NCBI GenBank assembly: GCA_902592675.1
Contig: CACJFJ010000001.1
Span: forward strand, 1 to 64,000
DNA from: an uncultured Pelagibacteraceae bacterium
GTDB lineage: Bacteria > Pseudomonadota > Alphaproteobacteria > Pelagibacterales > Pelagibacteraceae
Length of the DNA: 64,000 nt
Reading direction: 5' to 3'
The notes beneath the pieces were generated by a model, which did not search any database, was not told where the DNA came from, and saw only the letters and a program-made list of their open reading frames with translations. This document shows, one piece after another, positions 10,267-33,059 of the stretch; the stretch's first letter is position 1, and every line of letters starts with the position of its first letter. A program made the translations under genes and the position numbers.

Positions 10267-12088
10267 GATTGGTAGAGAAGTAATAAAAAAAGAACTACCT
10301 CTAATTCCTAAACTTCCTGGTGTATACAGGATGTTAAATGAAAAAGGGGATATTCTTTATGTAGGTAAAGCAAAAAATTTACCTAACAGACTCAAAAGTT
10401 ATGTAGCAGAAAAAAATCATATTATTAGAACTGAAAGAATGTTGTCTCAAACAAGAAAACTTGAGATTACAACTACATCAAATGAAAGTGAAGCTCTTCT
10501 TCTTGAAGCAAATTTAATCAAAAAATATAAACCAAAATTTAATATTCTTTTAAGAGATGATAAGTCTTTTCCATTTATTTTTATTGGTAATAAAGATAAA
10601 TGGCCACAAATAAAAAGACATAGAGGAAAAAAAACAAAAGAAGGTTTTTATTTTGGTCCATTTGCATCTGCTGGATCTGCTAATTGGACTATAAAAATGA
10701 TCCAAAAAATTTTTCATTTAAGAGTTTGTGATGATACAGTTTTTAAAAATAGAGAGCGCCCTTGCATATTATATCAAATCAAAAGATGTTCTGGTCCATG
10801 TGTTGGGTATATAGAAAAAAATGAATATAAAAAAACAGTCGATGATGCGATTGAATTTGTATCTGGCAAATCAAGAAAAATACAAAAAAGTCTCTCAGAC
10901 CAAATGGAAAAGGCAAGCGATAATTTAGATTTTGAAAAAGCTGTAATCTTAAGAGATAGAATAAAATCTTTAAATATTATCCAATCATCACAAAGAATTA
11001 ACGAAGCAAATTTAATTGAAGCCGATGTAATCGCTGGTTATAAAGAATCTGGTAAAACTTGCATTCAGGTTTTCTTTTATCGATCAAAACAAAATTGGGG
11101 TAATCAGGCTTTTTTTCCAAAGCATGATCCCGATGAAAAACTAAGTGATATATTAAACTCCTTCGTTTCTCAATTTTATGAAAATAAAAGTGTTCCATCA
11201 TCAATTATATTATCTGAAGAAATTAAAGAAAAAATTTTAATTGAAAAAACTCTATCTCAAAAAGAGGAAAAGCAAATCGATATATCCATTGGAAAGAAAG
11301 GGTCAAAGTTAAAAGTAATTAATCAGGCAATTAAAAATGCTAAAGATAGCCTAACTAGAAAACTTTACGAAAGTCAGAATAATAAAGAATTATTTGATGC
11401 AGTATCAAATAAATTTAATCTTGAAATAAATATTAATTTGATAGAGGTTTACGATAATAGTCATATCCAAGGAACAAATAGTGTTGGTGCGTTAATCGCC
11501 TATGGAGATGAGGGATTTATAAAAAAAAGATATAGAAAATTTAACATTAAGATTCAAAAAAATGAACAAGATGACTATGGTATGATGCGTGAAGTACTAA
11601 ATCGAAGGTTTAAAAGAGCCATACAAGAGAAAGATAATTATCTCACTTTCCCTGATTTAGTTTTGATCGACGGTGGCAAAGGTCAATATTCAGTAGCTAG
11701 AGAAACTCTCAATGAATTAGGTCTACACGACTTGCCTATTGTTGCAATAGCAAAAGGAAAGCAAAGAAATAGTGGAAATGAGACCTTTTTTCATAATGGT
11801 AAAGAATTTAAATTTACAAAAAACGATCCTACCCTATTTTTTCTTCAAAGAATCAGAGATGAATCGCATAGATTTGCTATTAGCGCTCATAGAGCCAAAA
11901 GAAAAAAAGGGATTAATAAATCATTACTTGATCAAATTGAAGGTATAGGCTCTATAAGAAAAAGAGCATTATTAAATCATTTTGGCTCAGCAAGAGCTGT
12001 TGAATCTGCGAGCTTAGATGAAATTAAATCTGTGGATGGAGTTGAGGAAAAAGTTGCAAAAAAGATATATAATTTTTTTCATGAATAA
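10253..12088 (+). CDS. uvrC: Excinuclease ABC subunit C
   Basis: UvrC is the dual-incision nuclease of nucleotide excision repair. It has an N-terminal GIY-YIG domain ([22 protein letters not shown]), the cysteine-containing central block [17 protein letters not shown] and a UVR motif. The RNase H-like incision domain follows ([17 protein letters not shown], then [10 protein letters not shown]), with C-terminal helix-hairpin-helix repeats ([15 protein letters not shown] and [14 protein letters not shown]). The track uses a TTG at 10223. The ATG at 10253 is preferred: it has an AAAGAAG purine stretch upstream and gives 611 aa, and it overlaps folB by 14 bases. pgsA follows after five bases. 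Confidence 0.97.
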
Positions 12089-30588: not shown

Positions 30589-31308
30589 ATGATTAAAAAG
30601 ACTTTAAATCAAAATACAAAATATGTTCGTCAATTAATAAAAATTGTAGAACCAAATTTTAATTTTGGAAGTAAACCTATAAATAGATTCGATTTGGACA
30701 AAAATGCTCAAGTTGAAACTAGCTTAGATAAATCTAAAAAATTAAAACATCTTGAAGAAAGAATTAATGCAATTGAAAATTGTAAATTGAAAGATTTTTC
30801 AAAAAATTTAGTGATGGGAGATGGAAATATCAATAGTCCAATAATGATAGTAGGAGAAAATCCAGGTGAGTTAGAGGATATTGACAATACCCCTTTTTTG
30901 GGTGAAGCGGGTGCTTTATTGGATAAAATGCTATTAGCAATTAACATAAAAAGAAAAAAAATTTATACTACTTATTCAATAAATTTTAGATCTCCAGAGG
31001 ACAGGAAGCCTACAAGCCAGGAGATTAAAAGATACTCAATTTTCCTGAAAGATCACATATCAATTATAGACCCAAAAATTATTATCTTATTAGGTAGTAC
31101 GGCAATGGAAGCTTTAACTGGCTTAACTAACAAAATTTCAGATGAAAGAGGAAAGTGGAAAGAGATAATTATCAAGAATAAATCTTTTATTGTTATTATC
31201 TCTTTTAGCCCATCATACTTAATAAGATTTCCAGAAAATAAAAAATATTCTTGGATAGATTTAAAAAAAATTAGACAAAAAGTAGAAAAACTAAAGATCG
31301 AAATTTGA
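30589..31308 (+). CDS. Uracil-DNA glycosylase family 4-like protein, diverged
   Basis: This 239-residue protein has the family 4/5 UDG fold. Motif 1 is GENPGELED (89-97), then TPFLGEAGALLDKMLL, PEDRKPTSQEI, IILLGSTAMEALTG and RGKWKE. Two features are unusual. Family 4 enzymes hold a [4Fe-4S] cluster with four cysteines, yet only one cysteine (C65) is present, with Phe and Tyr at two of the expected positions. Motif 2, normally HPSYLLR, reads SPSYLIR, so the conserved His is Ser207. It overlaps rnhB by the bases TGATG, so an intact reading frame is maintained. Activity is uncertain. Confidence 0.82.
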   Translation: MIKKTLNQNTKYVRQLIKIVEPNFNFGSKPINRFDLDKNAQVETSLDKSKKLKHLEERINAIENCKLKDFSKNLVMGDGNINSPIMIVGENPGELEDIDNTPFLGEAGALLDKMLLAINIKRKKIYTTYSINFRSPEDRKPTSQEIKRYSIFLKDHISIIDPKIIILLGSTAMEALTGLTNKISDERGKWKEIIIKNKSFIVIISFSPSYLIRFPENKKYSWIDLKKIRQKVEKLKIEI

Positions 31309-31901
31309 TGAAAATAATTGCTGGTGTTGACGAAGTTGGTCGTGGAAGTTTAATAGGACCAGTTTACGCAGCTGCTGTTATCTTGAATAGCACTATTGAT
31401 AAAAAACTATTAAAAGATTCTAAAAGTTTGAATAAATTAAAAAGAATTACTTTAGCAAAATATATCAAAAAAAATTCTATTTGGGCGATTGGTAAAGCGT
31501 CTGTCAAAGAAATTGAGAGGTTTAATATATTAAATGCAAGCTTGTTAGCAATGGAAAGGGCAATTAAAAAACTTAAAAAAAAACCCTCACTTGTTTTAAT
31601 TGATGGTAATAAACTACCAAAAATCAAAAACTATAATTTAAGATCAATTATAAAAGGTGATAAAAAAATACCCTCTATTTCTGCAGCATCAATAATTGCT
31701 AAAGTAGCTCGGGATAAAATGATAACTGCCCTTAGTAAGAAATTTGAAGGCTACTATTGGAGTAAGAATTATGGTTACGGAACAAAAAGACATTTAAAAG
31801 CAATAAAAACTTTAGGGATTACTTCTCATCACAGAAAAACCTTTTCTCCAATTAACAAAATTAGATCCGTTTCACGTAGAAACACAATATCTAGTTGTTA
31901 A
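31308..31901 (+). CDS. rnhB: Ribonuclease HII
   Basis: This 197-residue nuclease removes ribonucleotides from DNA. It shows the family opening IAGVDEVGRGSLIGPVYAAAVIL with the Asp-Glu pair, LIDGNKLPK (third acidic residue), and PSISAASIIAKVARDKMI followed by the fourth. The ATG at 31308 overlaps the UDG stop (ATGA-like TGATG) and is preferred to the track's TTG at 31305. ccrM follows after an 87-base gap that carries its own promoter. Confidence 0.96.
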   Translation: MKIIAGVDEVGRGSLIGPVYAAAVILNSTIDKKLLKDSKSLNKLKRITLAKYIKKNSIWAIGKASVKEIERFNILNASLLAMERAIKKLKKKPSLVLIDGNKLPKIKNYNLRSIIKGDKKIPSISAASIIAKVARDKMITALSKKFEGYYWSKNYGYGTKRHLKAIKTLGITSHHRKTFSPINKIRSVSRRNTISSC

Positions 31902-31946
31902 AAAATAACTTACCACAAATTTAAATCGAAATAATTCAATCGTAGG

Positions 31947-31975
31947 TTGACCCAAGAATCTTTTTGGAGTCTAAT
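31947..31975 (+). promoter_or_regulatory. Putative ccrM promoter with two embedded GANTC methylation sites
   Basis: TTGACC (31947-31952; five of six match TTGACA) is followed after exactly 17 bases by TCTAAT (31970-31975; five of six match TATAAT), placing the start about seven bases before the ATG at 31989. Two GANTC sites, targets of the encoded methylase, lie in it: GAATC (31956-31960) in the spacer and GAGTC (31967-31971) running into the -10 box. TTAC-N7-TTAA (31910-31924) upstream is one base off the CtrA full-site consensus. Confidence 0.6.
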
Positions 31976-31988
31976 TTGATTTTATAAA

Positions 31989-33059
31989 ATGAATTTAAAG
32001 TTAAAAAATAAATTAATCTATGGAGATAGTTTAGAGGAACTTAAAAAAATTCCTGATGAATCTTTTAATTTAATTTTTGCTGATCCACCTTACAACCTGC
32101 AGTTAAAAAGTGAACTTACAAGACCTGATAGGTCAAAAGTTAGCGCAGTCAACGACGAATGGGATAAATTTGAAAATTTTAAAAAATATGATGAGTTTAC
32201 TTATTCATGGTTAAGCGAATGTAAAAGAATTTTAAAAAAAGATGGTGCAATCTGGGTGATTGGTAGTTATCACAATATTTTTAGAGTTGGAACAGCTATT
32301 CAAAATTTAGGTTTTTGGATTTTAAATGACGTAATTTGGAATAAAAAAAACCCCATGCCAAATTTTAGAGGAACACGTTTCACAAATGCACATGAAACTT
32401 TAATTTGGGCATCTAAATCTGAAAAATCAAAATACACTTTTAATTATCAATCCTTAAAATGTTTAAATGATGATCTTCAAATGAGATCTAATTGGGAATT
32501 GCCGATTTGTAATGGTTCTGAAAGATTAAGAAAGAACGGTAAAAAAGTGCATTCTACCCAAAAACCTGAGGCTCTACTTCATAGAATTTTATTAGCAACT
32601 ACAAATAAAAATGATTTTGTTTTAGATCCTTTTTTAGGATCAGGAACAACAGCAACAGTTGCAAAAAAATTAGGTAGAAATTATTACGGAATTGAAAAAG
32701 AAAAAACCTATTTTAAAGCTGCTGAACAAAGACTAAAGAAAGCAAAACCCATAGAAGATGATAATTTAGATACTCTTCAGAACGGAAGATCTAAACCAAG
32801 AATACCTTTTGGTTCTTTGGTTGAATTAGGAATTATAAAACCAGGAACTACTATTTTCGATAACAAAAAGAAAATTAGCGCAAAAATTAGGGCTGATGGC
32901 AGTATCAAACATGCTCAAACTGAGGGCTCTATTCATAAAGTGGCAGCCACAATATTAGGTGCTGAAAGCTGTAATGGATGGACATATTGGCATTATAACT
33001 TGAATGGGAACGCAGTTCCTATCGATCATTTAAGACAAAGATTGATTTCTAATAGCTAG
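31989..33059 (+). CDS. ccrM: Cell-cycle-type DNA adenine methyltransferase CcrM (GANTC)
   Basis: This 356-residue beta-class N6-adenine methyltransferase has motif IV ADPPYNLQLKSEL (DPPY at 32-35) and the SAM motif LDPFLGSGTTATVAKKLGR near residue 212. The C-terminal domain typical of CcrM (LVELGIIKPGTTI, then ESCNGWTYWHYN) distinguishes it from ordinary restriction-type methylases. In alphaproteobacteria it methylates GANTC and couples DNA replication to transcription. No restriction enzyme is nearby, as expected of a solitary methylase. It shares a CTAG stop overlap with the convergent gene. Confidence 0.95.
   Translation: MNLKLKNKLIYGDSLEELKKIPDESFNLIFADPPYNLQLKSELTRPDRSKVSAVNDEWDKFENFKKYDEFTYSWLSECKRILKKDGAIWVIGSYHNIFRVGTAIQNLGFWILNDVIWNKKNPMPNFRGTRFTNAHETLIWASKSEKSKYTFNYQSLKCLNDDLQMRSNWELPICNGSERLRKNGKKVHSTQKPEALLHRILLATTNKNDFVLDPFLGSGTTATVAKKLGRNYYGIEKEKTYFKAAEQRLKKAKPIEDDNLDTLQNGRSKPRIPFGSLVELGIIKPGTTIFDNKKKISAKIRADGSIKHAQTEGSIHKVAATILGAESCNGWTYWHYNLNGNAVPIDHLRQRLISNS

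Follow-up and report, generated by a model that had tools for sequence, protein, structure and literature searches.

Two conserved GANTC sites in the SAR11 ccrM promoter and a proposed old autoregulatory switch coupled to replication

The window, the whole 64,000-nucleotide stretch of Pelagibacteraceae DNA analysed here, carries ccrM on the + strand (31989..33059, ATG at 31989). The gene follows rnhB, which encodes ribonuclease HII (31308..31901, + strand, stop at 31901; Pfam RNase_HII, 1.2e-41), after a gap of 87 bases (31902-31988, read directly). Structure and Pfam matches mark the ccrM product as a GANTC adenine methyltransferase: it aligns with Caulobacter CcrM (6pbd) over residues 8-351 with an E-value of 2.7e-142 and contains N6_N4_Mtase and RAMA domains. 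Its score against the NCBIfam CcrM equivalog, a model whose name points to Caulobacter, is 579.7 bits, below the cut-off of 830. Judged from these homologies, its identity as a CcrM-family GANTC methyltransferase is secure.

Within the gap, a -35 element, TTGACC (31947..31952, + strand), is separated by a 17-base spacing from a putative -10 element, TCTAAT (31970..31975, + strand, in its inferred register), and a stretch of 13 bases (31976..31988, + strand) leads from there to the ATG. Two GANTC sites lie inside this promoter, both read on the + strand: GAATC in the spacer (31956..31960), 9 bases past the start of TTGAC, and GAGTC (31967..31971), 20 bases past it, whose overlap with TCTAAT consists of the T and C common to both. 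This layout is, exact to the base, the one claimed in the initial annotation, and the TTAC-N7-TTAA reported there is also present as described (31910..31924, + strand). A generic sigma-70 scan of the window did not have the ccrM promoter among its predictions, because TCTAAT has no A at position 2, which the scan demands. With C at -11, the register of the SAR11 -10 at ccrM is uncertain. The transcript is predicted from these letters to be probably leaderless or nearly so, its start being expected at about 31981-31984, and no Shine-Dalgarno sequence was seen in the window upstream of the ccrM ATG.

The window has fewer GANTC than expected, 82 versus 175 from dinucleotide shuffles, and the probability of finding two in 87 bases is about 0.006-0.024, which agrees with the few per cent estimated earlier. 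Small as this probability is by itself, it is conservation that excludes chance: a chance origin of the pair is rejected on its conservation in SAR11, on genome-wide counts of the composite and on class-wide shuffles. The only other pair of sites at 8-13 bases in the window is formed by two GAATC, 11 bases apart (11850-11865), with no TTGAC at the corresponding distance.

We found ccrM in 262 of 297 genomes of the family (Pelagibacteraceae), and upstream regions were drawn from the ccrM-bearing SAR11 genomes together with 80 named GTDB records. Among 172 distinct SAR11 loci, 151 contain TTGAC-N15-NNNNN-TAAT, with GAGTC in 147. Site counts and Fitch changes on the ccrM tree refer to a slightly wider set, 155 SAR11 loci. 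In this set the spacer GANTC is found at +7 to +9 in 146 loci and the +20 GANTC is kept in 151, with 0-4 changes per column; 142 loci have both sites and all 155 have at least one. The GTTGAC columns and columns +23 to +28 show 0-1 changes, and the distance from the -10 to the ATG is 12-13 bases in 144 loci. The columns of GAGTCTAAT have 0-4 Fitch changes each, whereas third codon positions of ccrM average 18. In the alignment of SAR11 ccrM upstream regions that had been proposed as a check, the two GANTC sites and the spacing of -35 and -10 are therefore more conserved than expected under neutrality.

Two details of this alignment bear on what is being conserved. G20, which only GANTC requires, changed 4 times versus 24 times at the adjoining G19, and GANTC itself is therefore selected. 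At the spacer site, N may be A, C, G or T and the site slides by one base with no change in the distance between -35 and -10, so here too GANTC itself is what selection keeps. On this comparative evidence, selection maintains the GANTC sites as part of the ccrM promoter. Of the 155 loci, 90 have a third GANTC, located at -24, versus 52 expected from column shuffles; the window has none there.

The layout is common, not universal, in the SAR11 family. GAGTC at +20 is kept in genera g3, g6, g7, g8, g11, g13 and part of g12. Genera g2, g4 and g10 have GANTC mostly at +9, g4 with a further one at +25 within a dyad, GATTCAA-N7-TTGAATC, and g5 has a single GANTC, at +8 or +10. The +20 site is lost in g9 (4/4 loci) and in 3/5 g12 loci (TAGTC or AAGTT), with the rest of the promoter kept; g9 and part of g12 thus offer a natural comparison, the promoter minus its -10 GANTC mark.

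At the scale of whole genomes the composite TTGAC-N2..5-GANTC-N4..7-GANTC occurs once each in 35 of 40 Pelagibacter genomes, and in 34 of the 40 it lies at ccrM, judged by coordinates and sequence; the reversed pattern, used as a control, gave 4 matches in total over the same genomes. A general type of GANTC promoter used by many genes was considered and rejected, composites being nearly ccrM-only. A looser single-site pattern showed no excess over its backward control in SAR11.

The layout extends well beyond SAR11. With one genome per family across the alphaproteobacteria, 80 non-SAR11 ccrM loci were read. A GANTC pair after TTGAC lies upstream of ccrM in 29 of these 80 families versus a mean of 0.005 in shuffles, and none was found in 332 kb of control sequence. 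In an unselected count, GANTC stands at exactly +19 for 29 of 74 upstream TTGAC versus 0 of 97 in the background. It is also enriched at -15 and at about +8 to +10, where the counterpart of the spacer site lies (background about 0.001 per position). When loci are anchored on TTGAC and the +19 GANTC only, +24 is A and +28 is T, that is A(-11) and T(-7), in 29/29; the final C of GANTC is therefore the first base of a -10 hexamer C-A-n-n-n-T at 17-base spacing. The N of the +19 site is C or A only in the 29 families. TTGAC-N14-GANTCA-N3-T was found 1-3 times in 12 of 15 genomes, with a match at ccrM in 12/12, and the strict layout is absent in 46 of the 80 families. As far as such sequence comparison goes, the site in the window is the SAR11 version, shifted by one base and with GAGTC rather than GA[C/A]TC, of an old ccrM promoter design. 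The suggestion that it belongs to a streamlined genome did not hold up, as the same layout occurs at ccrM in many alphaproteobacterial families with large genomes.

We propose that the SAR11 ccrM core promoter is a CtrA-free form of this alphaproteobacteria-wide design and works as a replication-coupled autoregulatory switch, a reading that we rank first and to which we would give about as much credence as doubt. One GANTC sits in the -35/-10 spacer; the other, roughly a turn of the helix further downstream, runs into the -10. Under full methylation, N6-methyladenines at about -14/-12 (-15/-13 in other families) would lower promoter firing; passage of the replication fork would leave the promoter hemimethylated and let it fire, so that CcrM is made; CcrM would then re-methylate the chromosome, including its own promoter, and shut itself off, the outcome being one burst of CcrM per replication. 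We infer the methylation of these particular sites, its negative sign, its direct effect on polymerase and its timing. GANTC is methylated in Pelagibacter (PMC9516812), and a methyl mark overlapping the -10 directly inhibits the IS10 transposase promoter (reviewed in PMC3701705). By analogy with MamA marks over the -10 (PMC3701705) and with activation by GcrA (PMC3667746), the sign could also be positive. GcrA, where present, would probably also read the sites through sigma-70, and the direct-switch and GcrA-activated versions may coexist. The breadth of conservation of the layout suggests that such a self-regulating, replication-coupled switch is ancient. More tentatively, the ancient class-wide design might have been a methylase site fused to the -10 and read directly by polymerase, a self-limiting thermostat without CtrA or GcrA, both regulators having been gained or lost later by lineage.

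In Caulobacter, ccrM has its GANTC sites in the leader and is switched on by CtrA, whereas in SAR11, which has no CtrA, the ccrM sites fall within the -35/-10 spacer and on the -10 itself. C. crescentus ccrM resembles the proposed SAR11 switch in that hemimethylated DNA is described as its only template for expression, which ceases on methylation (PMC2217572); elsewhere it is called 'most probably' methylation-controlled (PMC3973325). The IS10 transposase promoter of E. coli likewise has an adenine-methylation site over its -10, and polymerase can read that mark (PMC3701705); however, IS10 uses Dam and GATC, not CcrM and GANTC, and its promoter does not make the methylase. The same overlap of site and -10 is found at ccrM by position and conservation, with the -10 putative. 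At the MamA-controlled promoters of Mycobacterium tuberculosis, too, the methylation site has a set position on the -10 (PMC3701705). They differ in that the mark increases expression, in that the overlap is with the 3' end of the -10, and in that none of the genes served is that of the methylase. Promoters of the GcrA/CcrM type (mipZ, ftsN, ctrA P1) likewise contain methylated GANTC, and Caulobacter has a promoter class with a site between -35 and -10 (PMC4287350). Unlike these, the -35/two GANTC/-10 composite is found almost only at ccrM, and some genomes in which no GcrA is detectable retain it.

Methylation-sensitive expression of ccrM is thus already known in Caulobacter, in combination with CtrA control, and the openly accessible papers searched describe GANTC sites in ccrM promoters in general terms. 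None of those papers was found to report the composite, how closely it is confined to ccrM, or that it is retained where CtrA, and apparently also GcrA, is missing. SAR11 cells, which rank with the most abundant in the sea, keep the fixed -35/GANTC/GANTC/-10 composite without CtrA, so that it would be a minimal version of the circuit, and many other families have it too. It also gives a prediction exact to the base, with the marks beside the -10.

As to the presumed reader of the GANTC marks at the ccrM promoter, a rival explanation is that GcrA with sigma-70 recognises methylated GANTC and helps to open a weak promoter, so that the methylated or hemimethylated state activates ccrM; we consider this possible, though rather doubtful. 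GcrA (PF07750) is present in 56 of 60 SAR11 genomes, covering all 14 genera, and its DNA-binding domain is recognisable, aligning to the solved domain 5yiu and to 7ye1. GcrA binds methylated GANTC preferentially, recruits polymerase and activates methylated promoters (PMC3667746), and the SAR11 -10, without A(-11), suggests a need for help. The restriction of the +19 N to C or A in the 29 families amounts to GAKTC on the opposite strand, which may be compared with the reported GcrA motif YGAKTCK (PMC7987155). In SAR11, GAGTCT agrees with GAKTCK, though what stands before it is mostly G or A rather than Y (155 loci), and GAGTC is on the top strand, reversed relative to other families. Co-occurrence in the 80 families spoke against GcrA as the sole reader: layout and GcrA show no positive association (25 with both, 9 with the layout and no GcrA; Fisher P 0.08, on the side of a negative association). 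Rechecking these nine genomes for GcrA at E 10 returned background-level matches only, although a diverged GcrA may have been missed. Seven of the nine have the exact +19 layout and are scattered over the CcrM tree, and the preference for C or A at N is unchanged in layout genomes without detectable GcrA. Such lineages call into question GcrA as the only reader of the marks, and the seven scattered genomes would favour, suggestively only, a reader beyond GcrA alone.

We think it unlikely that the GANTC sites are by-products, with AGTCTAAT merely the -10 region that the promoter needs and methylation without regulatory effect. Genus g9 behaves as this explanation expects, retaining AGTCTATT and losing only the G that completes GANTC; however, G20 is strongly conserved elsewhere (4 versus 24 changes) though the g9 promoter is without it. 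Also against by-products are the second, sequence-variable GANTC kept in the spacer (146/155), the depletion of GANTC in the window, and the families with other -10 sequences that hold GANTC at the same position.

Just upstream of the -35, TTCAATC (31935..31941, + strand) shows 0-2 changes per column in the 155 loci, and TTCAATC-N4-GTTGAC is invariant or nearly so among them. TTCAATC and GTTGAC together form an imperfect dyad, TTCAA-N7-TTGAC (31935-31951). In Pelagibacter, the dyad TTCAA-N7-TTGA(A/C) at the -35 is nearly invariant, and other SAR11 genera have TTCAA-N7-TTGAA or a variant adjoining the start codon. It is nonetheless quite improbable that a DNA-binding protein acting through this dyad has the main control of ccrM, leaving no more than fine-tuning to the GANTC sites: the strict form TTCAAC-N5-GTTGAA is found barely anywhere else in 18 genomes, with no regulon visible, and outside SAR11 the dyad is not a rule.

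A CtrA-dependent promoter as in Caulobacter, with the GANTC sites as modifiers, is hardly tenable and CtrA control was rejected: TTAC-N7-TTAA does exist at 31910-31924, but none of 25 SAR11 genomes has a CtrA match that exceeds the cut-off (148 bits at best, versus 350), Pelagibacter is reported to have no ctrA (PMC2877005), and TTAM-N7-TTAA lies 5' of the -35 in only 5 of 155 loci, so that the link to CtrA drawn in the initial annotation is not borne out and its unconserved site is probably there by chance.

Two observations concern the gcrA gene itself. In the genome of the window, gcrA (G000:C8:35602-36083) is split over two frames with a stop, unlike in nearly all relatives; in this partial genome the split is probably an assembly error. 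In several SAR11 genera, a gene for an OmpR-type response regulator lies near gcrA, convergent by coordinates (G001:C1, G004:C13, G005:C1).
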